Shown in pieces: positions 28,532 through 50,002 of a stretch of 64,000 bases of DNA. The notes beneath the pieces were generated by a model. It was not told where the DNA came from, made no database searches, and saw only the letters and a program-made list of their open reading frames with translations. Source of the DNA: Tautonia plasticadhaerens (lineage in GTDB: Bacteria > Planctomycetota > Planctomycetia > Isosphaerales > Isosphaeraceae); NCBI RefSeq assembly GCF_007752535.1, contig NZ_CP036426.1, positions 4,836,001 to 4,900,000 of the forward strand, given 5' to 3'. The first letter of the stretch is position 1. The number at the start of each line of letters is the position of its first letter. A program made the position numbers and the translations under genes.

Positions 28532-29683
28532 ATGAGCAGCGCGTCGGAGGATACCTATTTCCCGGGCCTCGAGGGCGTGATCTCCAACGAGACGGCGATC
28601 GCCGACATGCAGGGGACCGAGGGCCAGGGCGGGCTCGCCTTCCGGGGTTATGCCATCGAGGACCTCGCCGGCAAGGTCTCCTACGAGGAGGCGGCCTTCC
28701 TGCTGCTGCACGGCGACCTGCCGTCGAAGGCCCAGCTCGAGGAGTTCGGCGGGAGGCTCTCGTCCGCCCGGGCGATCCCCGATCCCCTGGTGACGCTGCT
28801 CAAGGCCGTACCCGAGGGCGTCCACCCGATGGACACCCTGCGGACGGCCGTCAGCGTGCTGGCCCATTACGACCCGGAGGTCAACGCCCCGGTCCAGGAC
28901 CACGCCGCCAACGTCCGCAAGGCCGAGCGGCTGATCGCGCAGATGGCCACCGCCGTGGCCGCCGCCGCCCGGGTCGCCCGGGGGCAGGAGCCGATCGCCC
29001 CGAAGGCGGGCCTCGGCCACGCGGCCAACTTCCTCGCCATGCTCAACGGCGCCGACCCGACCGAGGCCCAGGCCGAGGCGTTCGACCTGTCCCTGACGCT
29101 CTACGCCGAGCATGAGCTGAACGCCTCGACCTTCGCCGCCCGGGTGACCGCCTCGACGCTCTCGGACATCCACTCGGCGATCGTCTCGGCCGTGGGCACC
29201 CTGAAGGGGTCCCTGCACGGCGGGGCGAACGAGAAGTCGTGGGAGGTGTTGCAGCAGGTCGGCGAGCCGGAGAAGGCCGAGCGGTGGATCCAGGACGCCC
29301 TGGCCCGCAAGGAGCGGATCATGGGCTTCGGCCACCGGGTCTACAAGACCGGCGACCCCCGGGCCGTGATCCTCAAGCGGCACTGCCAGCGGGTGGCCGC
29401 CGAGATCGGCGACGACCGCTGGGAGCGGATCGCCGAGCCGATCGAGCGGGCCGTCACCGGGCAGAAGAATCTGCCGCCGAACGTCGACTGGCCCAGCGCC
29501 CGGCTCTACCACTACCTCGGCATCGAGGTGCCGATCTACACGCCGATCTTCGCCATGGCGAGGGTCGCCGGCTGGGCCGCCCACGTCATCGAGCAGCTCG
29601 ACAACAACCGCCTGATGCGCCCCCGGGCCCGATACGTCGGCACCCCGAACCGGGCCGTCCGGCCGATCGCCGATCGGGGCTGA
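28532..29683 (+). CDS. Citrate synthase (or 2-methylcitrate synthase)
   Basis: This 383-residue enzyme condenses an acyl-CoA with oxaloacetate. All three catalytic residues are in canonical context: His194 in YAEHELNAS, His268 in MGFGHRVYK and Asp319 in NVDWPSA. The N-terminus has the short bacterial type II form (GLEGVISNETAIADMQG, then LAFRGYAIEDLA). Sequence alone does not separate citrate from 2-methylcitrate synthase in this short clade; the nearby propionyl-CoA genes make the second possible, but no prpB or prpD is present, so citrate synthase is the default. The ATG at 28532 follows a GAGCCGAG purine-rich site. It is convergent with the large membrane protein downstream. Confidence 0.93.
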   Translation: MSSASEDTYFPGLEGVISNETAIADMQGTEGQGGLAFRGYAIEDLAGKVSYEEAAFLLLHGDLPSKAQLEEFGGRLSSARAIPDPLVTLLKAVPEGVHPMDTLRTAVSVLAHYDPEVNAPVQDHAANVRKAERLIAQMATAVAAAARVARGQEPIAPKAGLGHAANFLAMLNGADPTEAQAEAFDLSLTLYAEHELNASTFAARVTASTLSDIHSAIVSAVGTLKGSLHGGANEKSWEVLQQVGEPEKAERWIQDALARKERIMGFGHRVYKTGDPRAVILKRHCQRVAAEIGDDRWERIAEPIERAVTGQKNLPPNVDWPSARLYHYLGIEVPIYTPIFAMARVAGWAAHVIEQLDNNRLMRPRARYVGTPNRAVRPIADRG

Positions 29684-29731
29684 TTGGCCGCCCCGGATCC
29701 CCCCCTCCCCCGCCGGGAGGGGGGCGGACGG

Positions 29732-32700
29732 TCAGCCGCCGACCAGCGCCTCCTCGGCCTCCTCCCGGTCCTCGAAGGGGAGCTCGGAGGCGGGGTTGGA
29801 GGGGTCGAGCCGGCCGAACCCGCCGAGGGTCCAGACCAGCTCGGTGTAGTGTTGCAGGTCGAGCATGGTGAGGGTCTGGACGGTCCGGAGCGTGAGGATC
29901 TGGTCGCTCCAGAGGTCGGTCCGGAGCATGACCTCGGCCAACCGGGCGCGGAGCGTCGCCACCGGATCGGCGCCGCCCTGGCCCCGGAGGATGCGGGTCC
30001 AGCCCTTGAGGGCCCGGCGGTGCTTGCGGAGGTATCGCGAGGCCCGCGCCCGGGCCTCGCCGTCGAGCCGGGGGACGCAGGGCAGGTCCAGCAGCTCGGC
30101 GATCGGCCGGCGGACGTCCCGGACCGCGTGCCAGAGCGGGACGCCGTTGCCGGGGGCCTCGGGGAGCCCCTCGGGCAGCCGCCTCGGGTCGCCCGACGGG
30201 TCGGCGCCGTGGGAGACGACGGCCCGGATGGCGTCGATCGAGGTGCCGAGCGTCGCCACGTCGTCGTGGTCGGCGACCCAGGCGGTCACGAGGGCCCGGA
30301 GCACTTCGGCCCGGCGTTCGACCAGGTGGGGCAGGTCTTGGTGGAGGACCGCGGCGATGCCGTCGAAGTCCCAGCCGAACTCGCCCAGCCAGCGGGAGAA
30401 CCGGGCGATCCGGGCGCGCTGACCCTCGCGGAAGCGGTCGGCCATCACCCGCTCGTGCCGGGAGGCGCCGATGAAGTCGAGGTCGATCTCCATGAGGGAG
30501 TCGCTGCCGACGCTGATCGGCACGCTCGGCAGGGGGAGGCCGAGGTACTCCACGTCGAACTGGGCCCTCAGGCGGAGCGATTCCATGAAGGCGGGCTTGC
30601 GCATCCGGTGGATCTTCCGGACGGCCGCCTCGTACGACTCCTCCGGCTCGGTCGGGGAGGCGGCGACCGTCGGGTGCAGGATCTCGCGGATCACCCGGGA
30701 GACCCGGGCCACGACGTAGACGGCCCCCCGGGCCGCCCACCAGAGGATCCGCAGCGGGAGCACCAGCAGCTTCCCCTTGGCCAGGAACGACTCGTAGAGG
30801 TGGAAGACGTTGATCGTCCGCTGGGAGGCCGGGGCCCGGTGCAGGGGCAGGCTGCGGAAGGCGCCCCGGAGGTTCTGCTCGCGGTCGTTCTGGAGCAGGG
30901 CGACGACGGCGTCGCCGTATCGGGCGCGGATCTCCTCGTCCCGCTCGGCGTCGGCGATCAGGAAGTCGACGGCGGTGAAGTCGACCGTCTCGAAGAATTC
31001 GGCGGCCTCGGCGCGCTCCCGGGCGGGGGAGAGGCGGTCGGCGTCGGGGAAGCTGCCGACGGGCCCGGGCAGGGCGATCTCGCCCTCGGGCACCCCGAGC
31101 CGGGAGGAGAGCCAGCGGCGGTACCGGGCCCGGACCGACTCCGGGCTGCACGCCAGGCGGTCGAGCGGCACGGCGTGGCGGTTGAAGTCGATCAGCAGCT
31201 TGGCCGTCTCCTGGACGATCATCCGGGTGATGTAGTCGAACCACAGGTAGGGGCCGCCGAAGAGGCTGGCGGCGGCCCGGCTCAGGTCCAGCCGGTCGAG
31301 CCGCTTGCGGCCCTTGAGGAAGTACGGCAGGTTGCTCAGGCTGAGGTTCCGCAGCGCGAGGTTGCCCAGCAGTTGGGTCGACGCCTTGGTGTCGTTGCGG
31401 TGGAAGGGGGAGCCGTCGAGGTAGTCCTGGTAGAGCAGCCGGAGGGTGTGCAGGAAGTCGGACTCGCCCGCCTTGATCCGGGCGTCGAGGCGGAGTCCGA
31501 GCTCGTCGCCGTCGGGGGCCGCCTCGCCGTCCCCCCGGCGGCGCCCGAGGGGGGTGGAGACGGCGAGGACGCCGGCCGGGTCGGTCGCCCCCCCCCCGCC
31601 GTCGAGGTCGTCGGAGGTCCTCAGGCGGATCTCGGGGGCGGTGACGCGCTCGGCCAGGAACCGCAGGTCGCGCTCGCGGTGCAGCTGCTTGAGGCTCTTG
31701 GTCTGGGAGGCGAACTGGGCCTCGACGACCCGCTCGCAGAACTCGGCCGCCTGGTTGGCGATCCTCCGGAACCAGCTGCCGACCTGCATCAGCGCGAAGC
31801 AGACGACGCCGATGACGATCACCGGCAGGCCGAGCTTGTCGGCGAACCAGCCGAGGACCGACCGCAGCCTCAGGCCGAAGGCGTGCATCAGGCCGATCGG
31901 GCGGGGCTCGACGCCCGCCGGCGCGGTCGGGGACGCGTCGGAGGCGGGCACCAGGAGGTAGACCAGGGCGTAGAGGGCGGCGAAGGCGACGCCGAAGGTC
32001 AGCAGGCGGAACGCCGGGCGCCGGGTCGCGTTGACGATCGTCCGGCCGAGCTTGTCCAGGAACAGGGGCGGGGAGACGGTCGCCTGGAGGTCGGCGAAAT
32101 AGTAGACCACGTCCAGGGCCCGCTGCATGGCGTAGCCGAGGTAATTGGCCGCCAGCGCCCCGGCCTCGGCCGGCCCCTTGCGGCGGTGCTCCAGCACGGT
32201 GCGGACGGCCGGCAGGCGGCGGACGACCGGCACGTCGAAGAGTTGCAGGTAGCGGTCGATCGAGCCCACGAAGGCCGGGCCCATCTGCTCGACGAGCTCC
32301 TCGGGGGTCAGCTCGATGAGTCGCTCGACGACCTCCTCGATGGGGATGTCCCGCACCTCGTCCTCGACCCGCTCGGACCACTCGGCCGAGGGGATCTCGG
32401 CCAGCCGGCGGCCCAGGTCCTCCAGCCCCAGCTCGGCCAGCGCGAGCCGCTGCTCGGCGTCGAGCCGGGAGAAGTGCTCGGGGGCCCGGCGCTCGAAGTG
32501 GCGGCGGAGCAGGTACAGCAGGTGCCGGTTGCGGGTCTCGTCGTCCCGGTCGGACTTCGGCTCGAAGAGGATGATGTTCCGGTTGAAGACCGAGGCGTAC
32601 CGCCGCACCAGCCGGTCGGTGAACCGGAAGAAGAAGATGAACAGCCGGGCGAAGCGGATCGCGGGGCGGAGCAGGCGGATGTAGCGGATCAGCCGGGGGA

Positions 32701-34132
32701 GCCGCAGCATCCGGATCGCCCCGACCGTGCCCGCCGAGGACGGCGCGACCAGGACGAAGGCGAGGAAGCCGAAGGGGATCGACGGCAGCACGTCGATCAG
32801 GAAGTGCCTGCGTAGATACAGCAGCTTGCCCGAGACGAGCGAGAGCTTCACGCCGAGGTCGGCGAGGAACACCGAGCAGATCGCCAGGTCGAGCCAGGCG
32901 AAGGCGGCCTCCAACCGGGGCGTGAGCCGGCCCGAATTGGACAGCACCACCTCGACGATGATCTGGGCCGTCAGCACCAGGATGAGCACCAGGATCAGCC
33001 CGTCGACCGCCCTCGGGAACTTCGGGCCGAAGCGATCCTCCAGGCGGGAGGAGAGCTGCTTCTCCTGCCACTCGTTGCGGGCGGTCCTGGCCATGCGGCG
33101 GAACCGGCGGGAGAGGCGGCGGAGGTGGCCGACCGCCTGGCGATCCGCCCCCCGGTCGGCGAGGCGCCGGGCGGCCTCCTCGCAGTCGACGCCCAGCCGG
33201 AGCATGTCCTCCCGGGAGTGGTCGAGCATCAACACGGCCTGGCGGGGCTCGAGTTCCTCCAGCAGCGAGACGATCTCGTTGGACTCCCCCCGGGCCCCCG
33301 CGAGCAGATCGTCCCAACCGAGGGAGGCCGCCTCGGGGGGGAGGTCCCGGAGCCGATCGGCCGCCGAGGCCGCGAGCGCCTCCCGGCGTTCGACCAGGGC
33401 GGGGGCGAGGGGGGGGCGGGGGGAATCGGCCCCGTCCCCCGCCGGGGACTGGGCCTCGACCTCGGCCTGGAGCCGGGAGAGGAGGAAGCGCCGGGCCCAC
33501 AACTCGGGGGGATCGGCGTCCGGGATCGGCCGGCGGAGGATCTGGCCGATCCGGGCCTCCAGCAGCGACCGGCGGAGCGCCTCGGCCCGGTCCGACAGCT
33601 CGACCCGCCTCGGGCCAAGGCCGGGGGAGCGGTCGAGCTGGATGGCGTCCTTGAGCCGGTCCAGCTCGATCCGGGCCGAGACGGCCGGGTGCGTCGGCAC
33701 GCCCCCCTCGACCAGGGCGACCAGCTCGGAGAGCCAGGTCAGGTCGCGCCGGAACCGGTCGAGCAGGGCGGCCTTGCGGACCGGGTCGTCCCCGGGGCGG
33801 GTCAGCAGGGCGCCGAGGTACGACTGGTCGGACCGGAGGCGTCGGGAGGTGATCGCGACGAGCTTCGGGTCGACCGGCTCGGCGTGGTCGAGGGCCGAGA
33901 GCCGCGCGGTGGCCTCGTCCTGGAGGCGTTCGAGCAGGTCGTCGACCTCGGGGTGCGACGGCCGGAGCGGGTCGGGGTCCGACTCGTCGAGCCTGCGGCG
34001 GAGCCTGGTCCCCTCGTGGATGAGGCGGAGCAGCCGGGGGAGCGCCCCGCGGCCCGCGTCGTCGCCGTCGCGGCCCAGCAGTTCGGAGGCCCTCGACAGC
34101 CAGGAATCCTGCCACTCGATCGGGTCGCTCAA
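29732..34132 (-). CDS. 1466-residue protein with voltage-sensor-like membrane domain
   Basis: This is a large protein of no family I can name in full. The first 370 residues are charged and helical, probably coiled-coil. At about 376-505 come four hydrophobic segments: DGLILVLILVLTAQIIVEVV, then LAICSVFLADLGVKL, then a DVLPSIPFGFLAFVL helix, then MLRLPRLIRYIRLLRPAIRF. The last has basic residues every third position, as in S4 of voltage-gated channels. No S5-P-S6 pore or TVGYG filter follows; the chain goes straight into a charged region. Further hydrophobic segments lie near 710-733, 767-785 and 1120-1143. The C-terminal 300 residues look soluble and helical. It may be annotated ion transporter by domain search, but conduction is not supported. 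The GC-rich ATG at 34132 lies in the divergent region with the methylmalonyl operon. Confidence 0.75.
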   Translation of the reverse strand: MSDPIEWQDSWLSRASELLGRDGDDAGRGALPRLLRLIHEGTRLRRRLDESDPDPLRPSHPEVDDLLERLQDEATARLSALDHAEPVDPKLVAITSRRLRSDQSYLGALLTRPGDDPVRKAALLDRFRRDLTWLSELVALVEGGVPTHPAVSARIELDRLKDAIQLDRSPGLGPRRVELSDRAEALRRSLLEARIGQILRRPIPDADPPELWARRFLLSRLQAEVEAQSPAGDGADSPRPPLAPALVERREALAASAADRLRDLPPEAASLGWDDLLAGARGESNEIVSLLEELEPRQAVLMLDHSREDMLRLGVDCEEAARRLADRGADRQAVGHLRRLSRRFRRMARTARNEWQEKQLSSRLEDRFGPKFPRAVDGLILVLILVLTAQIIVEVVLSNSGRLTPRLEAAFAWLDLAICSVFLADLGVKLSLVSGKLLYLRRHFLIDVLPSIPFGFLAFVLVAPSSAGTVGAIRMLRLPRLIRYIRLLRPAIRFARLFIFFFRFTDRLVRRYASVFNRNIILFEPKSDRDDETRNRHLLYLLRRHFERRAPEHFSRLDAEQRLALAELGLEDLGRRLAEIPSAEWSERVEDEVRDIPIEEVVERLIELTPEELVEQMGPAFVGSIDRYLQLFDVPVVRRLPAVRTVLEHRRKGPAEAGALAANYLGYAMQRALDVVYYFADLQATVSPPLFLDKLGRTIVNATRRPAFRLLTFGVAFAALYALVYLLVPASDASPTAPAGVEPRPIGLMHAFGLRLRSVLGWFADKLGLPVIVIGVVCFALMQVGSWFRRIANQAAEFCERVVEAQFASQTKSLKQLHRERDLRFLAERVTAPEIRLRTSDDLDGGGGATDPAGVLAVSTPLGRRRGDGEAAPDGDELGLRLDARIKAGESDFLHTLRLLYQDYLDGSPFHRNDTKASTQLLGNLALRNLSLSNLPYFLKGRKRLDRLDLSRAAASLFGGPYLWFDYITRMIVQETAKLLIDFNRHAVPLDRLACSPESVRARYRRWLSSRLGVPEGEIALPGPVGSFPDADRLSPARERAEAAEFFETVDFTAVDFLIADAERDEEIRARYGDAVVALLQNDREQNLRGAFRSLPLHRAPASQRTINVFHLYESFLAKGKLLVLPLRILWWAARGAVYVVARVSRVIREILHPTVAASPTEPEESYEAAVRKIHRMRKPAFMESLRLRAQFDVEYLGLPLPSVPISVGSDSLMEIDLDFIGASRHERVMADRFREGQRARIARFSRWLGEFGWDFDGIAAVLHQDLPHLVERRAEVLRALVTAWVADHDDVATLGTSIDAIRAVVSHGADPSGDPRRLPEGLPEAPGNGVPLWHAVRDVRRPIAELLDLPCVPRLDGEARARASRYLRKHRRALKGWTRILRGQGGADPVATLRARLAEVMLRTDLWSDQILTLRTVQTLTMLDLQHYTELVWTLGGFGRLDPSNPASELPFEDREEAEEALVGG

Positions 34133-34282: not shown

Positions 34283-34311
34283 TTGACATGAGGTCGAACA
34301 TCCCGTACCTT
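34283..34311 (+). promoter_or_regulatory. Strong sigma70-type promoter
   Basis: TTGACA at 34283-34288, a perfect -35, is followed after 17 bases by TACCTT at 34306-34311. It points to the leader at 34318 and the CoA-transferase operon. The preceding 150 bases (34133-34282), shared with the divergent membrane-protein gene, show nothing else I recognise. Confidence 0.8.
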
Positions 34312-34317
34312 GGTCTT

Positions 34318-34401
34318 CATCAAGTCGCTCATGACGGGCGACGTTGGATCGGCCAAGTGAGCCCCTTCATGCGATTTCTTTCGCGTGAGAGGGGCTTTTT
34401 T
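34318..34401 (+). ncRNA. Candidate ~84-nt leader or small RNA with three hairpins
   Basis: A transcript from the promoter at 34283 would start near 34318 and meet an intrinsic terminator ending at 34401. It can form three successive hairpins: GTCGC (34324-34328) with GCGAC (34338-34342), TTGG (34344-34347) with CCAA (34353-34356), and the long terminator stem. It has no sizeable open frame with a ribosome site. It may be an attenuator for the CoA-transferase/mutase operon that starts at 34572, or a free-standing small RNA. I match it to no known riboswitch class. Confidence 0.55.
34360..34401 (+). terminator. Intrinsic terminator in the leader of the methylmalonyl operon
   Basis: AGCCCCT (34360-34366) plus TCATGCG pair with CGCGTGA plus AGGGGCT (34390-34396), one bulged G, loop ATTTCTTT, followed by six T. 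It is the best intrinsic terminator in the window after the tRNA-Asn one, and it lies between the promoter and the first gene. Confidence 0.85.
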
Positions 34402-34571
34402 CGTTGCATGCCGCGCACGAAAAACCGAGAACGACCTCGGCCGGTACGCGCGGCTCGCGCCCTCCTTCCCACTCTTCGACGACGACGCGAAGGGAGGCCG
34501 GCCGACGAGGCCGATCCGACCCCCAGACCCGCAGGACGGGCCCTCCCCCGAGAGCCGGAGTTTCCCTGGCG

Positions 34572-36086
34572 ATGGCGACCGCACCCGACTACCCCGAACT
34601 GACCGCCGAGGAGGCGGCCGAACGGATCCCCCACGGGGCGATGCTCGCCGTCGGCGGGTTCACGCCGGCCGGGGCCCCCAAGGCGGTGCCCCGGGCCCTG
34701 GCCCGACGCGCCCGGGCCCTGCACGAGGGCGGGACGCCGTTCCAGGTCCGGGTGATCAGCGGCGCCTCGACCGGGGACGCCTGCGACGACGAGCTGGGCC
34801 TCGCCGAGGCCGTGAGCTGGCGTGCCCCCTACCTCACCTCCGCCCCGCTCCGGAGGCTGGCGAACTCGGGGAAGCTCGACTTCGTCGACATGCACCTCTC
34901 GCACGTCTCCCAGGTGGTGCTGGAGGGGTTCCTCGGCCCGATCGACGTGGCGGTGGTCGAGGCGACGGAGGTGACGCCGGACGGCAAGGTCTACCTGACG
35001 ACCGGCATCGGCAACGCGCCGACGTTCCTCCAGTGCGCGGACGAGGTCATCATCGAGCTGAACGCCCGGCACGACCCCCGGCTCCGGGAGATGGCCGACA
35101 TCCTCGTCCTGCCGCCCCCCCCCAATCGCAAGCCGATCCCGATCAACGACCCGCTCGACAAGATCGGCACGCCGCACGCGCTGGTCGACCCGAGGAAGGT
35201 GATCGGCGTGGTCCGTTCCGACGAGCCCGACGGCGGCCGGGGCTTCACCCCCCCCGACGAGGTCAGCCGGAGGATCGCCGGGCACGTCTCGCAATTCCTG
35301 CTCGACGAGATGGCGAAGGGGCGCATCCCCAGCGGGTTCCTGCCGCTGCAGAGCGGCGTGGGGAACGTCTGCAACGCGGTAATCGCCGGGCTGGCCGAGA
35401 GCCCCGATTTCCCCAAGTTCAAGGTCTACACCGAGGTCCTCCAGGACGCGATGCTCGACCTGATCGCCGCCGGGAGCGTGACCGGGGCGAGCACCTGCTC
35501 GCTGACCCTCTCCGACGAGAAGCTGGGCTGGTTGTACGAGCACTTCGACGACTTCGCCGACAAGATCGTGCTCCGCCCGCAGGAGATCTCCAACAACCCG
35601 GGGATCGCCCGACGGCTGGGGGTGATCGCCACCAACACGGCGATCGAGGTCGACATCTACGGCCACGCCAACAGCACCCACTTCTTCGGCACCCAGGTCA
35701 TGAACGGCCTGGGGGGCAGCGGCGACTTCGAGCGCAACGCCTATCTCTCCATCTTCATGTGCCCGTCGGTCGCCAAGGGGGGGAAGGTCTCGACGATCGT
35801 GCCGATGTGCTCGCACGTCGACCATAGCGAGCACTCGGTCCAGGTCATCGTCACCGAGCAGGGCCTGGCCGACCTCCGCGGCCTGGCCCCGGTGCCCCGG
35901 GCGAGGAGGATCATCGAGTCGTGTGCCCACCCGGCCTATCGGGACTACCTGATGCACTACCTCGAATCGAGCCCGCCGGGGCACATCCGCCACGACCTGA
36001 GGCGCTGCTTCGAGCTGCACTCGAACTTCATCGAGCGGGGCGCCATGCTGCCGGAGCTCGATCCCTCCCGGTTCGGCTCGCGTTGA
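34572..36086 (+). CDS. Succinate/acetyl-CoA CoA-transferase (acetyl-CoA hydrolase family)
   Basis: The 504-residue enzyme belongs to the acetyl-CoA hydrolase/transferase family (Cat1, AarC and YgfH/ScpC relatives), which moves CoA between carboxylates such as succinate, acetate and propionate. It shows GAMLAVGGFTPAGAPKAVP near the start, VISGASTGDACDD, a KVYTEVLQD segment whose Glu288 is the likely catalytic residue of the thioester intermediate, NTAIEVDIYGHANSTHFFG, and the closing VTEQGLADLRGLAPVPRARR. Its length is normal. As first gene ahead of mutA and mutB (gap 33 bases) its probable job is propionyl-CoA plus succinate to propionate plus succinyl-CoA, which closes the Wood-Werkman cycle; acetate cannot be excluded as the other partner. 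It is downstream of the promoter and terminator-bearing leader at 34283-34401. Confidence 0.9.
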   Translation: MATAPDYPELTAEEAAERIPHGAMLAVGGFTPAGAPKAVPRALARRARALHEGGTPFQVRVISGASTGDACDDELGLAEAVSWRAPYLTSAPLRRLANSGKLDFVDMHLSHVSQVVLEGFLGPIDVAVVEATEVTPDGKVYLTTGIGNAPTFLQCADEVIIELNARHDPRLREMADILVLPPPPNRKPIPINDPLDKIGTPHALVDPRKVIGVVRSDEPDGGRGFTPPDEVSRRIAGHVSQFLLDEMAKGRIPSGFLPLQSGVGNVCNAVIAGLAESPDFPKFKVYTEVLQDAMLDLIAAGSVTGASTCSLTLSDEKLGWLYEHFDDFADKIVLRPQEISNNPGIARRLGVIATNTAIEVDIYGHANSTHFFGTQVMNGLGGSGDFERNAYLSIFMCPSVAKGGKVSTIVPMCSHVDHSEHSVQVIVTEQGLADLRGLAPVPRARRIIESCAHPAYRDYLMHYLESSPPGHIRHDLRRCFELHSNFIERGAMLPELDPSRFGSR

Positions 36087-36119: not shown

Positions 36120-38270
36120 ATGATTGCGAAGGATCTGGACATCGCCGCCGACTTCCCGCCCGTCTCATATGAGCAGTGGCGGGAGAACGCCGAGGCGGAA
36201 CTCAAGGGGGCGCCGTTCGAGAAGAAGCTCGTCGGCCGGACCTTCGAGGGCATCGACATCCAGCCGCTCTACGGGGCGCAGCACTGGAGGTCGGCCGGGG
36301 ACGCCTCGGGTTTCCCCGGCCTCTCCCCGCTGACCCGGGGGGACCGGGTGCTGGGCAACGCCGCCGCCGGCTGGGACATCCGCCAGGAGCACCTGCACCC
36401 CGACCCGGCCGAGGCCAACCGGGCGATCCTCGACGACCTGGAGCACGGCGTCTCCTCGATCCAGCTCCGACTGGATGCCGCCGCCTGCTCCGGCCTGGAC
36501 GCCGACGACCGGGACGCCGTCAGCCTCGCCGGCCAGGACGGCGTGATGGCCTACTCGGTCGGTGACCTCGACCGGGTGCTCGACGGGGTCCGCCTGGACA
36601 TCGCCCCCGTCTCCATCGACTGCGGCGGCTCGTTCCTGCCCGGCGCGGCCCTGCTGGCGGCCCTGCTGGAGGCGAGGGGCGTGGAGCCGTCGGGCGTCCG
36701 GTGCGCCTTCAACGCCGACCCGATCGGCGCCCTGATGCGGGATGGCCGGCTGAACGTCCCGCTGGACGAGGCGATGGCCGAGCTGGCCGACCTGGCCTGC
36801 TGGACCGCCGATCGGTACCCGGAGGCGACGTCGGTGGAGGTGGGGACCGGGGCGTATCACCACGCCGGGGCGTCGAGCACGCAGGACCTGGCCTTCGCGG
36901 TCGCCACGGGGCTGGAATACCTGAGGGCGATGACCGCCGCCGGGCTGGACGTGAACGCGGCCGCCCGGCAAATCGCCTTCGGCGTGAGCCTGGGCACGCA
37001 GTTCTTCCGGGCGATCGCCAAGCTCCGGGCCCTCCGGCTGATGTGGTCGAAGGTGGTGCTCGAATGCGGGGGGGACCCCGACGCCGGCCGGACGATGCGG
37101 CTGAGGGCCCGGACGAGCCGCCGGGTGCTGACCGGGGTCGACCCCTGGGTCAACCTGCTCCGCAACACGGTCTGCTGCTTCGCCGGCGCGGTGGGGGGGG
37201 CCGACTCGATCACGACCGCCCCGATGGACGCGGCCCTCGGCCTGAGCGACCACTTCGCGCGGCACCTGGCCCGGAACACGCAGATCATCCTCCAGGAGGA
37301 GTCGCATCTGAATCGGGTGATCGACCCGGCCGGCGGGTCCTGGTTCCTCGAGACGCTGACCGGGCAGCTCGCCGAGAGGTCCTGGGAGATCCTCCGCCAG
37401 GTGGAGGAGCGGGGCGGCATGATCCCCGCGGCCACCGGGGGGTGGGTCGGCGACCAGGTCGAGGAGGTCGAGGCCGCCCGGGAGGAGGCCATCGCCACGC
37501 GCAAGCTCGTGGTCACGGGGGTGACCGAGCATCCCGACGTCCGGGAGGAGCGGCTCGTCCGCGAGCGGCCGGATTACGCCCGGCTGCGGGCCGAGGCGTC
37601 GACCCGGCTCGTCTCCTGGAGGCGCGACCACAAGGGGGGGGAGGCATTCAGGGCGCTGGCCGAATCGGCCGTCGATGCCGACCGGTCTCCCGGCTCGCTG
37701 ACGGCCGCCGCCATCCGGGCCGCGAGGGGGGGGGCGACGATCGGCCAGATGGCCTCGGCGCTGGCCTCGGCCTCGGGGGGGCGGGAGCCGGCCCGGGTCG
37801 CCCCGCTGGCCGTGCATCCGTATGCCGCGGCCTTCGAGGAGCTGCGGGCCGCCGCCGACATCCAGGCCCAGGAGGTTGGCCGCCGCCCGAGGGTCTTCCT
37901 GGCGAACCTGGGCATCCCGGCCGAGTTCATCGCCCGGTCGACCTACGCGGCGAACTTCTTCCAGGCGGGCGGGTTCGAGGAGGTCAACAACGACGGATTC
38001 CCCGACCCCCGGGCCGCCGCCGAGGCCTTCGCACGCAGCGGGGCGGCGATCGCGGTCATCTGCTCGACCGATGCGCGGTACCAGGAGCAGGCGGAGCCGC
38101 TGGCGAGGGAGCTCAAGGCGTCCGGCGCCCGGACGGTCGTGCTGGCCGGCAACCCGGGGGCCAACGAGGCGCGATACCGGGCGGCGGGGGTCGATCGATT
38201 CATCTTCATCCGATGCGACGTCCTGGGCACCCTCCGGGACCTGCTCCGCGAGGAAGGGGCGCTGCGATGA
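36120..38270 (+). CDS. mutA: Methylmalonyl-CoA mutase, small (beta) subunit
   Basis: The 716-residue protein is the MutA-type partner of the adenosylcobalamin enzyme that interconverts succinyl-CoA and (R)-methylmalonyl-CoA. It retains the TIM-barrel domain ([15 protein letters not shown] early, [21 protein letters not shown] mid-barrel, [18 protein letters not shown]) and a C-terminal flavodoxin-like domain from about 570. In that domain the cobalamin motif DxHxxG is absent: the corresponding stretch reads [19 protein letters not shown]. This is the known state of the non-catalytic subunit. Its stop overlaps the mutB start (ATGA), so the two are translationally coupled. The assignment to the beta subunit follows from order, length and the lost His. 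Confidence 0.95.
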
Positions 38271-40471
38271 GTGCCATCCCGAACTTCAAGGACGTGGGCT
38301 GGGACGGCGGGCCGAGGCCCTCGGCCGACCTCGCACGGTGGCGGGCCGCCGCGGAGGCCGAGGCGGGCCGTCCGGTCGACCGGCTCGCCCGGCCGACCCC
38401 GGAGCAGATCCCCGTCCGGCCGCTCTACACCGCCGCCGACCTCGACGGGCTGGCCCACCTGGACACGATGCCCGGCATGCCGCCGTTCGTCCGGGGGCCG
38501 TACACGACGATGTACGTCGTCCGCCCCTGGACCGTCCGCCAGTATGCCGGGTTCTCGACGGCCGAGGAGTCGAACGCCTTCTACCGCCGCAACCTCGCCG
38601 CCGGGCAGAAGGGCCTCTCCGTCGCCTTCGACCTGCCCACGCACCGCGGCTACGACTCGGACAACCCCCGGGTCACGGCCGACGTGGGCATGGCCGGGGT
38701 GGCGATCGATAGCATCCTCGACATGAAGATCCTCTTCGACGGGATCGCGCTGGGGGACATCAGCGTTTCCATGACCATGAACGGCGCCGTGCTGCCGGTG
38801 ATGGCGCTCTACATCGTGGCCGCCGAGGAGCAGGGCGTCGGGCAGGAGCAGCTCGCCGGGACGATCCAGAACGACATCCTCAAGGAGTTCATGGTCCGCA
38901 ACACGTACATCTACCCGCCCGGGCCGAGCATGCGGGTGATCTCCGACATCTTCCGCTACACCTCGGCGCACATGCCGAAGTTCAACAGCATCAGCATCAG
39001 CGGCTACCACATGCAGGAGGCCGGGGCGACGGCCGACCTGGAGCTGGGCTACACGATGGCCGACGGGCTGGAGTACCTCCGCTCCGGAATCCGGGCCGGC
39101 CTGAGCATCGACGATTTCGCCCCTCGCCTGTCGTTCTTCTGGGCGATCGGCAAGGACATCTTCATGGAGATCGCCAAGCTCCGCGCGGCCCGGCTGATCT
39201 GGGCGAAGATCGTCAAGGGGTTCGACCCGAAGAATCCCAAGAGCATGTCCCTGCGGACCCATAGCCAGACCAGCGGCTGGAGCCTGACGGCCCAGGACGT
39301 GTACAACAACGTGATCCGGACCTGCATCGAGGCCATGGGGGCGACCCAGGGCCACACGCAGAGCCTGCACACCAATTCGCTGGACGAGGCGTTGGCGCTC
39401 CCCACCGACTTCTCGGCCCGGATCGCCCGGAACACGCAATTGTTCCTCCAGGAGGAGACGGATACGGACTTCGTCGTCGACCCCTGGGGCGGCAGCTACT
39501 TCATCGAACGCCTCACCCACGAGCTGGCCCACCGGGCGTGGTCGCACCTGTACGAGGTGGAGCAGCTCGGCGGCATGGCGAAGGCGCTGGAGGCCGGGAT
39601 CCCCAAGATGCGGATCGAGGAGGCCGCGGCCCGGACCCAGGCCGACATCGACTCCGGGGTGCAGACGATCGTCGGCGTGAACAAGTATGTGCTCGAACGA
39701 GAGGATCCGGTCAAGGTCCTCAAGGTCGACAACAAGGCCGTCCGGGAGGCGCAGGTCCGCCGCCTGGCCGAGTTGAGGGCGAATCGGGACCAGGCCGCCG
39801 TCGATGCCGCGCTCGGTCGGCTGACCGAGGCCGCCCGCTCCGGCGGGGGGAACCTGCTGGAGCTGGCGATCACCGCGGCCCGGGCCCGGGCCACCGTGGG
39901 GGAGATCAGCCTGGCGTTGGAAGCCGTTTACGGCCGGCACGAGGCGGAGACGGTGGAGATCGCCGGGGTCTATGCCCGGCAGTTCGGGGAGCGGAGCGGG
40001 GCGATCGCCTCGGTGCAGCGGAGGGTCGAGCGGTTCCTGGACCGTGAGGGCCGACGCCCCCGGATCCTCATCGCCAAGCTCGGCCAGGACGGGCACGACC
40101 GGGGGCAGCAGGTGGTGGCTACGGCCTTCGCCGACTTCGGCTTCGACGTGGACGTGGGGTCGCTGTTCCAGACCCCCGAGGAGGCCGCCCGGGAGGCGAT
40201 CGACAACGACGTTCACGTCGTCGGGGTCTCCTCGCTGGCGGCCGGGCACCTGACCCTGGTCCCGGCGATCCGCAAGGTGCTGGACGACCAGGGGAGGGAG
40301 GATATCCTCGTGGTGGTCGGCGGCGTGATCCCGCCGCAGGATTACGAGGAACTGTTCGAGTCGGGCGCCGTGGCCGTGTTCGGCCCCGGCACGGTCATCA
40401 CCGACGCCGCGCTGAAACTCCTGGAGTTGCTCGATCCCGAGGGCCGCGAGGAGCCGGTCGGTGCCGCCTGA
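38267..40471 (+). CDS. mutB: Methylmalonyl-CoA mutase, large (alpha) subunit
   Basis: The 734-residue catalytic subunit carries out the radical rearrangement between succinyl-CoA and methylmalonyl-CoA with adenosylcobalamin. The substrate barrel has [20 protein letters not shown] near residue 75, [15 protein letters not shown] and [13 protein letters not shown], which holds the active-site His. The C-terminal B12 domain (from about 600) has [10 protein letters not shown] with the cobalt-ligating His610 and later [10 protein letters not shown]. Everything expected of an active enzyme is present. The start overlaps the mutA stop by four bases. MeaB follows eight bases after the stop. The gene is B12-dependent, which is notable given the cobalamin riboswitch 9 kb downstream. 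Confidence 0.97.
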
Positions 40472-40478
40472 GGGAACC

Positions 40479-41537
40479 ATGTCCAACCCAAGCGGGCCGC
40501 CGATCCCGCCGCAGAGGCGACGGCTCTCCCCGGATCAGTACGTCGAGGGCGTCCTGTCCCGGTCTCGGGGCGTGCTCGGCCGGGTCATCACGCTGTTCGA
40601 GTCGCGTCGGCCCGACGACCGGGCGCTCGCCCGGCTCGTGCTCGACACGCTGGTGCCCCACTCCGGCCGGTCGATCCGGCTGGGGATTACCGGCGTCCCG
40701 GGGGCGGGCAAGAGCACGCTGATCGAAGCGCTCGGGCTGAGGCTGCTGGCGGAGGGGCATCGCGTGGCCGTCCTGGCGATCGACCCGTCGAGCCGGGTGA
40801 CAGGCGGGAGCATCCTCGGCGACAAGACCCGGATGGCCCGCCTGAGTGTGGAGGATGACGCCTTCATCCGCCCCTCGCCCACCGGGACGGCCCTCGGCGG
40901 CGTCGCCGGCCACACCCGGGAGGCGATGCTCGCGTGCGAGGCGGCGGGCTACGACGTTGTGATCGTCGAGACGGTGGGCGTCGGCCAGTCGGAGACGGCG
41001 GTGGCGGACATGGTCGACACCTTCCTCGCCGTCCTGATCGCCGGGGCCGGGGACGAACTCCAGGGCATCAAGCGGGGGCTGGTCGAGATGATCGACGTGC
41101 TCGCCATCAACAAGGCCGACGGCGAGAACCGCCCCCAGGTCGACCGCGCCGTCTCCCAGTACCGCAACGCGATCCGCCTGATGCACCCTCCCGAGAGCCC
41201 CTGGATCCCTCCCGTCCTGCCGTGCAGCGCCCGGGAAGGCACCGGCCTCGGGGAGATCTGGGCGCAGGTGCTCGCCCACCGGGCGGCGATGGAGCGGGCG
41301 GGGTTGCTCGCCGAGCGTCGGCGATCGCAGGCGGTCCGGTGGATGTGGGATCTGGTGGAGGAGCAGGTCCGGCGTATGCTGAGGGACGCCCCGGGCACAG
41401 GCGACCTCGCCGCCCGGCTCGAATCGGAGGTCCGGGGCGGCCGGATCTCCGCCTCGTCCGCCGCCGATCGGATCGCCTCGGCCCTCGGCCTGACGGCCCC
41501 ACCGGGGGCCGGGCCGGACGGGCCGGGCCCCCCTTGA
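40479..41537 (+). CDS. meaB: Methylmalonyl-CoA mutase-associated GTPase MeaB
   Basis: The 352-residue G3E-type GTPase protects and reloads methylmalonyl-CoA mutase with adenosylcobalamin. The P-loop GVPGAGKST is at residues 72-80, the switch region has AIDPSSRVTGGSILGDKTRM, then VETVGVGQSETAVADMVDTF and the guanine-specificity motif NKAD near residue 210. The C-terminal helices (SQAVRWMWDLVEEQVRRML) form the usual dimerisation arm. The ATG at 40479 is preferred over an in-frame GTG at 40461, which would overlap mutB, because GAGGG lies just before it. Its place immediately after mutB is the classic arrangement. Confidence 0.96.
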   Translation: MSNPSGPPIPPQRRRLSPDQYVEGVLSRSRGVLGRVITLFESRRPDDRALARLVLDTLVPHSGRSIRLGITGVPGAGKSTLIEALGLRLLAEGHRVAVLAIDPSSRVTGGSILGDKTRMARLSVEDDAFIRPSPTGTALGGVAGHTREAMLACEAAGYDVVIVETVGVGQSETAVADMVDTFLAVLIAGAGDELQGIKRGLVEMIDVLAINKADGENRPQVDRAVSQYRNAIRLMHPPESPWIPPVLPCSAREGTGLGEIWAQVLAHRAAMERAGLLAERRRSQAVRWMWDLVEEQVRRMLRDAPGTGDLAARLESEVRGGRISASSAADRIASALGLTAPPGAGPDGPGPP

Positions 41538-41597
41538 AATCGAACCGAAACCTCATTTCGACGATCCGACGATCTTCAACGGATGGAGTCCGAATCC

Positions 41598-43112
41598 ATG
41601 GCACGCACGGTCGAGGTCACGGAGCTCGCCCTCCGGGACGGTCACCAGAGCCTGCTGGCGACCCGGATGGCGCTGGAGGACATGGTCCCCGCCTGCGAGG
41701 ACATCGACCAGGCCGGCTACTGGAGCGTCGAGTGCTGGGGGGGGGCGACCTACGACTCCTGCATCCGGTTCCTCAACGAGGACCCCTGGGAACGGTTGCG
41801 GACCTTCCGCAAGCTGATGCCGAATTCCCGGTTGCAGATGCTCCTGCGCGGGCAGAATTTGCTGGGATACCGGCACTACGAGGACTCGGTGGTCGACCGC
41901 TTCGTTGAGAAGTCGGCCGAGAACGGCATGGACGTCTTCCGGGTCTTCGACGCCCTGAACGACATCCGGAACCTCCGCCGCGCCATGGAGGCGGTCCGGC
42001 GGACCGGCAAGCACGCCGAGGGGACGATCTGCTACACGACCTCCCCCCTGCACACGGTCGGCAAGTTCGTCGAGATGGCGAAGCGGCTCCAGGACCTCGG
42101 ATGCGACTCCATCTGCATCAAGGACATGGCCGCCCTGCTCCGCCCGCAGCCGGCGTACGACATCGTGAAGGGCATCAAGGAGTCGTGCGGCCAGGAAACT
42201 ACGGTCCATGTCCACGTCCACTCGACGACCGGCGTCACGCTCGTCAGCCTGATGAAGGCGATCGAGGCGGGCGCGGACATCGTCGACACGTCGATCTCGT
42301 CCCTCAGCCTCGGCCCGGGGCACAACCCGACCGAGGCGCTGGTCGAGATGCTGGAGGGCACCGGGTACACCACCCGGCTCGACAAGGATCGACTGCTGAA
42401 GATCAAGGACCACTTCGCCCGGATCCGGCCGAGGTACGCCGAATTCGAGTCGAAGTTCGTGGGGGTGGAGACGGAGATCTTCGACAGCCAGATCCCCGGC
42501 GGGATGATCTCCAACATGGAGAGCCAGCTCCGGCAGCAGGGGGCCGGCGACCGGGTGAAGGAGGTGCTCGCCGAGGTCCCGAAGGTCCGCCAGGTGGCCG
42601 GATTCCCCCCCCTGGTCACGCCGTCGAGCCAGATCGTCGGCACGCAGGCGGTCTTCAACGTGTTGATGGGGCCCTACAAGGTGCTCACCGGCGAGTTCGC
42701 CGACCTGATGCTCGGGTACTACGGCGAGACGATCGGCGACCGGGACCCGGAGGTCACCCGGCTCGCCGCCGAGCACAACAAGAAGGACCCGACCACCGAC
42801 CGCCCCGCCGACCACCTGAAGCCCGAGTGGGACGGCCTGAAGGCCAGGGCCACGGCCCTCGACGGCTGCGACGGGACCGATGAGGACGTGTTGACCTACG
42901 CGATGTTCCCCCAGGTGGCCCCCAAGTTCTTCGCGGGGCGGTCCTCGGGGCCGAAGAACCCGGGCAAGGACCCGGTCTCGGCCGCCGCCAGCGCCGCCGC
43001 CGCCAGCCCGGCCGCCCGGGCCATCGACTCCAAGGGCCCCGTCACCGGACCCATCACCTACACGGTCCGGATCGGCGACACGTCCCGCACGGTGACCGTC
43101 GAGCCCGCGTGA
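41598..43112 (+). CDS. Transcarboxylase 5S-type subunit (pyruvate/oxaloacetate carboxyltransferase)
   Basis: This roughly 504-residue protein is the 5S/OadA-type carboxyltransferase, which moves carboxyl between carboxybiotin and pyruvate (giving oxaloacetate) or the reverse. The barrel begins EVTELALRDGHQSLLATRMA, with DxxQS at the active site; the carbamylated Lys is expected in CIKDMAALL (Lys175), and the metal ligands in HVHVHSTTGVT. The SSLSLGPGHNPTEALVEMLE and GGMISNMESQLRQQG blocks are near-identical to propionibacterial 5S. A C-terminal linker of about 60 residues, rich in Ala and Pro, ends in a short beta-rich tail. There is no fused biotin domain; the carrier is the separate gene at 45230. 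I prefer ATG 41598, with GGAG upstream, over ATG 41583. Confidence 0.93.
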   Translation: MARTVEVTELALRDGHQSLLATRMALEDMVPACEDIDQAGYWSVECWGGATYDSCIRFLNEDPWERLRTFRKLMPNSRLQMLLRGQNLLGYRHYEDSVVDRFVEKSAENGMDVFRVFDALNDIRNLRRAMEAVRRTGKHAEGTICYTTSPLHTVGKFVEMAKRLQDLGCDSICIKDMAALLRPQPAYDIVKGIKESCGQETTVHVHVHSTTGVTLVSLMKAIEAGADIVDTSISSLSLGPGHNPTEALVEMLEGTGYTTRLDKDRLLKIKDHFARIRPRYAEFESKFVGVETEIFDSQIPGGMISNMESQLRQQGAGDRVKEVLAEVPKVRQVAGFPPLVTPSSQIVGTQAVFNVLMGPYKVLTGEFADLMLGYYGETIGDRDPEVTRLAAEHNKKDPTTDRPADHLKPEWDGLKARATALDGCDGTDEDVLTYAMFPQVAPKFFAGRSSGPKNPGKDPVSAAASAAAASPAARAIDSKGPVTGPITYTVRIGDTSRTVTVEPA

Positions 43113-43154: not shown

Positions 43155-44720
<1,566 letters not shown>

Positions 44721-45229: not shown

Positions 45230-45622
45230 TTGAAACTCAAGATCACCGTCGACGGCAGAGTCTTCGAGGTCGATGTCGAGGTCGCCGAGCCGGAGCCGAT
45301 GAGGCCCTCCTACGTCCCGCCCTCCGGCCACGCCCGGATGCCGGCCTCGCCGGCGGGCCCCCCGGCCTCCCCGGGGGCCGGGCCGGGCCCGGCACCGGTG
45401 GCGGACGAGGCCAAGGTCTGCCGGAGCCCGCTGGCCGGCGTCGTCTCCCGGGTCGAGGCCAGGCCGGGCCAGGCGATCCGGGTCAATGACGTCCTGATCG
45501 TGCTGGAGGCGATGAAGATGGAAACGGTCATCACCGCCCCGGTCGCCGGCGTCGTCTCCCGGGTCAACGCCGGGGTCGGCGACGGCGTCCAGCAGGGGCA
45601 GGTGCTCGTCGAGTTCGAATGA
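45230..45622 (+). CDS. Biotin carboxyl carrier protein (transcarboxylase 1.3S type)
   Basis: This 130-residue biotinyl carrier shuttles carboxyl between the 5S- and 12S-type subunits. The N-terminal strand KLKITVDGRVFEVDVEV is the 1.3S/AccB-like start, followed by a Pro/Ala-rich linker and a biotinyl domain (about 62-130) with two half-repeats PLAGVVSRV and PVAGVVSRVNAG around EAMKMET, where Lys96 is the biotinylation site. The start is inferred to be TTG at 45230: GAGGAG lies five bases upstream, it puts KLKITVDG at the N-terminus as in relatives, and no ATG or GTG serves. A rare start in a gene whose product is needed in bulk is worth noting. Confidence 0.92.
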   Translation: MKLKITVDGRVFEVDVEVAEPEPMRPSYVPPSGHARMPASPAGPPASPGAGPGPAPVADEAKVCRSPLAGVVSRVEARPGQAIRVNDVLIVLEAMKMETVITAPVAGVVSRVNAGVGDGVQQGQVLVEFE

Positions 45623-45724
45623 CGGGCATCGATCCCCCCGGGGGCCGCCCGTCTCGGGCGCCCCGGGCGGCCCGAATCGAAATGGAGCCCGGCCCCCGGG
45701 CGATCACCGAACGAGGAAGGTCCC

Positions 45725-46144
45725 ATGACACCGGTCAAGGCGCTCAACCACATCGGCATCGCGGTCCGATCGATCGAAGAACACCGCCCGTACTACGAAG
45801 GCACCCTCGGCGCCGAGTTCGAAGGGGTCGAGGAGGTGGCCGACCAGAAGGTCCGCGTCGGCTTCTTCCGCATCGGCGACGTCCGATTCGAGTTGCTGGA
45901 GCCGCTCGACCCGTCGAGCACCATCGCCGGCTTCCTCGACAAGCGGGGGGAGGGGATGCACCACGTCGCCTTCACCGTGGAGGGGATCGAGGACCGCATC
46001 GCCGAATGGAAGGCCGGCGGCCTCCGGATGATCGACGACGCGCCCCGTCCGGGGGCCCACCACATGCGGATCGCCTTCGCCCACCCCAAGAGCACCCACG
46101 GCGTGCTCACCGAGCTGTGCGAGCCGGCCGGCGGCCAACCCTGA
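45725..46144 (+). CDS. mce: Methylmalonyl-CoA epimerase
   Basis: The 139-residue enzyme interconverts (R)- and (S)-methylmalonyl-CoA, needed because the mutase and the carboxyltransferase use opposite epimers. It is a vicinal-oxygen-chelate fold protein with the metal ligands visible in LNHIGIAV (His9), the HHVAF block (His79-His80 region) and VLTELCEP (the Glu). Segments RVGFFRIGDVRFELLEPL and GMHHVAFTVEGIEDRI match the family over their whole length. The ATG at 45725 follows an ACGAGGAAGG site. It is the last gene of the operon; a strong GC hairpin follows. Confidence 0.95.
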   Translation: MTPVKALNHIGIAVRSIEEHRPYYEGTLGAEFEGVEEVADQKVRVGFFRIGDVRFELLEPLDPSSTIAGFLDKRGEGMHHVAFTVEGIEDRIAEWKAGGLRMIDDAPRPGAHHMRIAFAHPKSTHGVLTELCEPAGGQP

Positions 46145-46165
46145 GCGCCGCCCTCCCCGGCCCGG

Positions 46166-46187
46166 CCCGCCCGACCCGTCGGGCGGG
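46166..46187 (+). terminator. Hairpin at the end of the methylmalonyl operon
   Basis: CCCGCCCGA at 46166-46174 pairs perfectly with TCGGGCGGG at 46179-46187 over a CCCG loop, 22 bases after the epimerase stop. It lacks a T run, so it is a likely transcript end or pause site but not a textbook terminator. Confidence 0.5.
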
Positions 46188-46374
46188 TCGCGGCGTCGAA
46201 CACGGATGGAACATTCATCCAATCGGAGGTCTCCGAAGGATTTCATTTGCAGGTCGCCGCGGCCCGCCGCATGATCATCGGGCCGGGACGAGACACGTCG
46301 ACGCGGGTCGGTCCGATCGTCGGCCGCCCCGCCGACCCGCCCGAGCGGCGGTGCCCCGGCCGGGGACCTTCTCC

Positions 46375-49577: not shown

Positions 49578-49597
49578 CCGCGTTCCGTCATCAGACG

Positions 49598-49797
49598 CGA
49601 GGTGACCGTCCCCCGAAGCCTTCGGGGGCGGTGAACAGGGAACCCGGTGCGAATCCGGGACGGCCCCGCCGCTGTGACCGGGCAGTCAACGAGCCCCTCC
49701 CCTCCTCCAGCCATTGTCGATGAGCCCAGGCGCACGGCGCGGGGGTCGCGATGAGAAGGCTTGGGGCTCGTGCCCGGGAGTCAGAAGACCTACCTCG
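49598..49797 (+). promoter_or_regulatory. Cobalamin (B12) riboswitch
   Basis: The closing stem P1 is CGAGGT (49598-49603) with ACCTCG (49792-49797). Inside are the diagnostic conserved blocks of the AdoCbl-type cobalamin riboswitch: GGGAACCCGGTGCGAATCC, CGGCCCCGCCGCTGTGACC, and the closing B12 box GGGAGTCAGAAGACCTACC (49777-49795; class consensus AGYCAGGAGACCTGCC). It precedes the three-gene operon at 50003-52897 by about 205 bases. In the expression platform a hairpin ATCCCCC (49920-49926)/GGGGGAT (49943-49949) lacks a T run, so control by start-site masking or Rho is as likely as intrinsic termination. High B12 is expected to turn the operon down. Confidence 0.95.
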
Positions 49798-50002
49798 AGT
49801 CGCTCCCGGCCCTGCTCTGCGAGGGACGAGCACGCCGGGCGGAATGCGTCGAGACCTCCGTTCGACCCCCGTTCCGAGGACCCCCCCGGTTTGCGGCCGC
49901 CGATCGCCCGGTCGGACGAATCCCCCTGCCCCGGCCCGACCCGGGGGATCGAAGGGATCCGGCCGAGGGTGCGTTCCCGTCCGCTCGCCGGGACCATCAC
50001 CC

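Follow-up and report, generated by a model that had tools for sequence, protein, structure and literature searches.

A putative ANTAR-type antitermination leader upstream of a propionate fermentation operon in Tautonia and its planctomycete relatives

INTRODUCTION

The RNA targets of ANTAR proteins that have been tested carry hexanucleotide loops with an A at position 1 and a G at position 4 in both of their hairpins.(PMC3369931) A second system with a bearing on this work is the NmpRSTU phosphorelay of Myxococcus xanthus, which includes the protoglobin kinase NmpU, the RR-RR protein NmpT and the RR-kinase NmpS. In this relay the oxygen-active globin kinase blocks the phosphorylation of the output protein by the second kinase, and its discoverers already noted nmpSTU homologues in Planctomycetes.(PMC6211767, PMC11841059)

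The DNA analysed here, called the window, is a 64-kb stretch of a Tautonia genome (family Isosphaeraceae). Planctomycetes are mostly grown as aerobes, and to our knowledge no regulator of their switch to fermentation has been worked out. The window contains a short promoter-terminator element ahead of a succinate CoA-transferase gene. The analysis below leads us, with good confidence, to regard this element as a cis-acting leader for antitermination that serves a hypoxia or fermentation regulon and represents a planctomycete variant of the ANTAR targets.

RESULTS

Anatomy of the leader

The features of the element and of the genes that follow it are listed in Table 1. Both promoter hexamers with their 17-nt spacer were confirmed in the sequence, as was the predicted intrinsic terminator, which ends ~85 nt after the start and 170 nt before the CoA-transferase ATG. 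Two smaller hairpins had been proposed to precede it; the first stands as P1 and shows strong covariation, but the second had to be redrawn as P2, which overlaps the 5′ arm of the terminator. In the window copy P2 has three standard pairs only, the fourth being a C-A mismatch. The region 34313-34405 folds with an energy of −41.4 kcal/mol as compared to −27.1 ± 2.9 kcal/mol for shuffled sequences (z = −4.95), and 0 of 200 shuffles folded equally well. A scan for strict consensus promoters and terminators reported neither part of the element. The promoter was missed because its −10 hexamer TACCTT is a weak box that matches TATAAT at only 3 of 6 positions, and the terminator because a bulge interrupts its stem; the empty scan is a limit of the scanner thresholds.

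Table 1. Coordinates of the leader, the operon downstream of it and the sensor operon of the Tautonia genome (window positions unless another locus is given).
Feature	Position	Strand	Details
Promoter	34283-34311	+	−35 TTGACA 34283-34288; 17-nt spacer; −10 TACCTT 34306-34311
Whole conserved RNA	34321-34401	+	covariance models R1-R3; 93.1 bits with R1; sole copy of the RNA family in the window
P1 hairpin	34324-34342	+	GTCGCTC-ATGAC-GGGCGAC; pentaloop ATGAC with invariant G3
P2 mini-hairpin, putative antiterminator	34351-34363	+	GGCC-AAGTG-AGCC, loop AAGTG; 3′ arm is the terminator 5′ arm
Intrinsic terminator	34360-34401	+	AGCCCC...GGGGCT-TTTTTT, T tract 34396-34401; from fold; mutually exclusive with P2
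Succinate CoA-transferase, first controlled gene	34572-36086	+	ATG at 34572; TIGR03458, 700.9 bits, over cut-off; Pfam PF02550/PF13336
Methylmalonyl-CoA mutase small subunit	36120-38270	+	TIGR00642, 486.7 bits, below equivalog cut-off
Methylmalonyl-CoA mutase large subunit	38729-40471	+	NF006944, 1020.9 bits, over cut-off; true start upstream of 38729
MeaB, mutase-associated GTPase	40461-41537	+	NF006958, 457.7 bits
Methylmalonyl-CoA carboxytransferase 5S subunit	41583-43112	+	NF008984, 948.7 bits
MmdA-like methylmalonyl-CoA decarboxylase/carboxytransferase alpha subunit	43155-44720	+	TIGR01117, 761.7 bits, below cut-off
Locus of the Tautonia sensor operon, L202	G000:C1:5828000-5846000		
Protoglobin-HK	L202 7295-8686		
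RR-RR	L202 8683-9432		
RR-PAS-HK	L202 9429-10913		
Type-B CheY-ANTAR response regulator	G000:C1:5838909-5839490		

Comparison of the copies gave a consensus order of promoter, P1, a linker of ~7-12 nt, P2 and terminator. The consensus of P1 is GYCGCUC-RYGAN-GGGCGRC and that of P2 is GGCY-ANGNN-RGCC, and the terminator 5′ arm GCCCC has GCC in common with P2. The loops are 5 nt long in 105/105 copies of P1 and 103/106 of P2. Their third position is a G in all 63 copies of the family alignment for both hairpins, and in the wider alignment in 105/105 (P1) and 102/106 (P2). Position 1 is a purine in both loops, in P2 mostly A/G. The loop-closing pairs covary, with C-G or U-A in P1 and U-A, U-G or C-G in P2.

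The 3′ arm of P2 (columns 67, 68 and 71 of alignment A10) is also the terminator 5′ arm that pairs with columns 141-139. The terminator fold was more stable than a fold with P2 enforced by a mean of 5.9 kcal/mol, and by 9.7 kcal/mol in the window copy; the default state is therefore predicted to be off. A promoter of the form TTGAC-N16-18-TAnnnT with at least 8 of 12 positions matched was found in 66% of 105 copies as compared to 7% of shuffles. The end of its −10 box mostly lies 5-12 nt ahead of the RNA model, a nearly fixed distance.

A succession of promoter, short RNA and terminator like this one is found at lambda pR′ and at AlpA-controlled genes. In antitermination of the Q, AlpA, put or LoaP type, polymerase is modified by a factor loaded near the promoter and then passes the terminator. 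We consider a mechanism of this kind extremely improbable here, since a conserved P2 that is exclusive with the terminator would be needless for it and the regulator that is linked to the RNA carries an ANTAR domain (see below). Leader-peptide attenuation through the short ORF ATGACGGGC...AAGTGA in the leader of the window copy was considered as well and rejected: many copies lack the ATG, and the ORF is not conserved.

Distribution and covariation of the RNA family

Short homologues of the element were found in relatives by BLASTN, and a covariance model (R1) was built from six aligned copies. At the loose cut-off of E ≤ 1, R1 gave matches in 39 of the 45 genomes of the family and up to 42 copies per genome. 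A second strong copy in the Tautonia genome precedes pyruvate:ferredoxin oxidoreductase. A third one (L089, G000:C2:64701-64780; 56 bits with R2) lies before a beta-helix protein gene. When 294 genomes from the whole phylum were searched with R2 and 16 candidates per genome were scored, the window genome alone was matched, which is not evidence of absence from the others.

The original prediction had found no similarity that could be placed. Likewise, Rfam 15 gave no match to the element at the gathering threshold or at E ≤ 10, neither with the cobalamin model nor with any other riboswitch model, and the sole Rfam match at E ≤ 10 from a wider-threshold search of the stretch was a chance match elsewhere. 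The leader family is apparently undescribed.

In an alignment of 67 copies, 96.5% of the cells held standard pairs as compared to 84.5% after shuffling, where it should be noted that alignment to a covariance model is biased toward its structure. Compensatory cells numbered 130, against 28 in the shuffles, and the covariation signal collapsed when the pairing partners were slid. Conservation of the stems in relatives, which had been set beforehand as the test of the prediction, was indeed found, with changes on both sides in 14 of 17 pairs. The lower stem of the terminator was 98.8% paired and the upper stem 93.8%, with all six pairs of the latter compensated. Among 96 distinct copies the P1 helix was 94.8% paired, with changes on both sides in 6 of its 7 pairs. 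In the same set P2 was 93.5% paired although it was never part of the search model; the composition of its pair 55-65 was UA35/UG30/CG16/GC1. With homologues in relatives, a family that a covariance model recovers and promoter-like sequence that keeps its offset from the RNA, the claim that the structure goes beyond chance is borne out.

Genes downstream of the leader

The operon in the window encodes the central enzymes of the methylmalonyl-CoA route of propionate fermentation. On its other side the element adjoins a divergent ORF of 1509 amino acids (29586-34115, − strand) that has no Pfam or NCBIfam match. Farther downstream, an ORF of 864 amino acids (45619-48213, + strand) has a prepilin-type N-terminal motif that begins near residue 542, and its start is probably mis-extended. 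A cobalamin riboswitch (49583-49811, + strand; Rfam RF00174, 77.8 bits) occurs near genes for DUF1559 and DUF4465/PEP-CTERM secreted proteins and may mark a planctomycete B12-capture system.

Of 57 newly fetched copies, 53 had their nearest downstream gene in the same orientation (p = 3e-12); the ORFs behind this count came from a simple script, and individual strand assignments may be wrong. Divergent gene pairs have one RNA copy for each gene. An attenuator had been among the proposed layouts, and the copies fit it: they are terminator-bearing leaders that stand immediately ahead of genes on the same strand. An independent small RNA had also been proposed and found no support. With the switch off, the default product would be a terminated RNA of ~80 nt that should accumulate, and such transcripts, which have their own promoter and terminator and occur in many copies per genome, might act in trans on mRNAs or sequester the ANTAR protein. 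The position of the copies nearly always just upstream of a same-strand gene and the separate copies in divergent pairs argue against this, and we regard it as highly improbable.

In relatives, the genes after the copies encode PFOR, a succinyl-CoA-ligase-like protein, PPDK, PRPP synthase and phosphoribosyltransferases. Others encode Usp, HSP20, BON, M50-CBS, cytochrome c and cyclic-nucleotide-binding proteins as well as HPr, CsrA and sigma factors. A raw tally of 104 downstream proteins gave BON 6, HSP20 6, PPDK 5, CsrA 5, sigma-70 5, PFOR 4, Usp 4 and phosphoribosyltransferase 4. Judged from these predicted functions, the regulon reads as a low-oxygen or dormancy programme.

An ANTAR regulator linked to the RNA

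ANTAR genes were sought because the P1-P2-terminator arrangement resembles ANTAR targets (PMC3369931). Genomes that bear the RNA tend toward one ANTAR gene more than those that lack it. With profile A8, the ANTAR proteins of the family fell into two well separated types, scoring at least 284 or at most 176 bits; overall, type B was defined by a score of at least 206 bits, the other full-length ANTAR type scoring at most 176. Within the family, the RNA (E ≤ 1e-4) was present in 28 of 30 genomes with type B and in 1 of 15 without it. Among 22 genomes outside the family, RNA matches were found in G046 and G054 only, which are among the only three of these genomes that have a type-B-like protein above 200 bits. 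In G046 the RNA lies 4.5 kb from the ANTAR gene and in G054 1.1 kb. For the pooled 67 genomes, of which 33 have type B, the RNA occurred in 30/33 with and 1/34 without it (Fisher 1.6e-14), and it was found within 10 kb of the type-B gene in 13 of 30 genomes where 1.08 were expected (P = 9e-13); both counts cover related genomes, so the p-values overstate independence.

Within genera g7 and g14, genomes mostly had both the RNA and type B or neither of them, with G064 as an exception. Type B occurs without a detected RNA in G064 and G039 and with weak RNA matches only in G006, and in G012 (81% complete) the RNA is present while the type-B gene was not found. The type-A ANTAR paralogue was rejected as the partner: most genomes of the family carry it, among them genomes that lack the RNA, so that it cannot account for the distribution of the latter. 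The type-A CheY-ANTAR gene of the Tautonia genome lies at L100 2051-2617 (G000:C1). In another genome, at least 7 RNA copies are spread over ~35 kb together with stress, respiration and regulator genes (L068 and L069, G017:C36); a type-B ANTAR gene is also present in this cluster, which is possibly a hypoxia island.

The co-occurrence with an ANTAR gene bears on the metabolite riboswitch that the original prediction had allowed for. A small molecule such as an acyl-CoA, pyruvate, PRPP or a nucleotide could bind the RNA and free the operon from the terminator, as a conserved 5′ hairpin, a linker and a terminator ahead of metabolic operons and the covariation would permit. Only ~40 nt of conserved structure precede the terminator, and no metabolite is common to controlled genes as diverse as those for Usp, HSP20, BON, CsrA and sigma factors. 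Because of this diversity, and because the presence of the RNA tracks the ANTAR gene, we consider a metabolite riboswitch very unlikely; the diversity of the controlled genes was also the ground for rejecting a B12, biotin or CoA riboswitch.

The ANTAR reading was further examined at the level of the protein. In an alignment to EutV (6wsh), mapped by eye from the printed alignment, type B retained the flipped-G-holding residues Arg142, Lys149 and Glu160, with Tyr164 replaced by Phe. Arg168, Met172 and Arg175, which EutV uses for contacts elsewhere in the loop and stem (PMC8934654), are replaced, which is in keeping with a changed loop. No papers linking ANTAR proteins with planctomycetes were found in the open-access literature.

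The sensor operon

In Tautonia, G002 and other genomes the type-B gene is the last of an operon with the order protoglobin-kinase, RR-RR, RR-PAS-kinase and ANTAR, and it overlaps the end of the RR-PAS-HK gene. Three proteins of the NmpUTS kind, a protoglobin-HK, an RR-RR and an RR-HK, are thus encoded together and in the gene order of the Myxococcus relay, and the output protein at the operon is a CheY-ANTAR protein, with no NtrC-like response regulator. The heme-binding His (His102 in the G002 protein) is kept in 39 of 40 aligned protoglobin sequences. At nine loci (L134, L135, L138, L139, L141, L143, L148, L152 and L168) the protoglobin gene is immediately preceded by an RNA match, most of these matches being of a weaker, diverged form. 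This position suggests autoregulation of the sensor operon in several loci. No clear leader was found ahead of the operon in the Tautonia genome.

The signal sensed by this relay could be something other than oxygen, such as NO, redox or energy state, or a PAS ligand, the RNA still being an ANTAR target. Besides O2, globin domains also accept NO and CO as ligands, the second kinase contains a PAS domain, and a protoglobin domain was found in only 39 of the 80 type-B loci. Many of the loci without protoglobin are cut by contig ends, however, and the conserved heme His, the fermentative character of the regulon and the match of the operon to the Nmp relay (PMC11841059) all point to oxygen, so that we consider another signal unlikely, though less so than the other alternatives above.

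DISCUSSION

The RNA family with its covariation and exclusive pairing, its position before same-strand genes, the make-up of the regulon, the co-occurrence and proximity of type B and the architecture of the sensor operon are read directly from the sequences; from them we infer the binding of protein to RNA, the direction of the switch and oxygen as the signal. By default, transcription would begin just ahead of P1 and end at the terminator ~85 nt on, leaving the operon off. Upon activation, the CheY-ANTAR regulator would be phosphorylated, dimerize and bind the paired hairpins P1 and P2. With P2 held in place, its GCC bases would no longer be available to the terminator, so that polymerase would read into the propionate-fermentation operon. 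The most likely signal is low oxygen. The heme (protoglobin) kinase encoded in the operon of the ANTAR protein would sense it, and the RR-RR protein and the RR-PAS kinase would relay it, as in Myxococcus Nmp. For this planctomycete group at large, it seems fairly likely that a global hypoxia regulon is controlled at termination by an Nmp relay with an ANTAR output and pentaloop targets, and that its sensor operon is autoregulated in some lineages.

The proposal offers a concrete circuit from a heme sensor to an RNA, with R1-R3 as search models by which the regulon of a genome can be recognized, and would extend ANTAR recognition to a new class of loops. If it is true, a global low-oxygen response is run through RNA and not through promoters, with fermentation and stress genes stopped until the relay fires. 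One phosphorelay then seemingly replaced promoter activation by antitermination as its output and kept its role in hypoxia.

The predicted regulon resembles the DosR dormancy regulon of Mycobacterium, which has heme sensor kinases and includes Usp, HSP20-type, CBS/M50 and phosphoribosyltransferase-like proteins. DosR binds promoters, whereas the planctomycete leaders would act at termination.

Like the described ANTAR targets (the EutV eut leaders, the NasR nasF leader and AmiR; PMC3369931, PMC8934654), the new leader has two small tandem hairpins with a short linker followed by an intrinsic terminator, similar conserved loops in both hairpins and a second hairpin that shares bases with the terminator 5′ arm and excludes it. 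In both cases an ANTAR response regulator that is encoded nearby co-occurs with the RNA. The new leader differs in having R1/G3 pentaloops (RYGAN and ANGNN) instead of A1/G4 hexaloops, a longer P1 of 6-7 pairs, tens of copies per genome and an occurrence in planctomycetes, and its type-B ANTAR protein is without the conserved Arg168, Met172 and Arg175 of EutV. Since it does not have the A1/G4 hexaloops of the strict definition, we regard it as a variant and not as a member of the ANTAR targets. The actinobacterial ANTAR RNAs are similar in forming ANTAR-dependent regulons with large numbers of leaders (as many as 36 in a genome), but have hexaloops and few terminator overlaps, and no oxygen relay is reported for them (PMC8164766). 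The planctomycete system resembles Nmp in that its three relay genes occur together, its sensor operon is putatively autoregulated in several loci and its predicted hypoxia genes include those for Usp and CBS-domain proteins, as in Myxococcus. The output differs: in Nmp the NtrC-like NmpR acts on promoters, whereas in planctomycetes an ANTAR antiterminator would act on RNA leaders.
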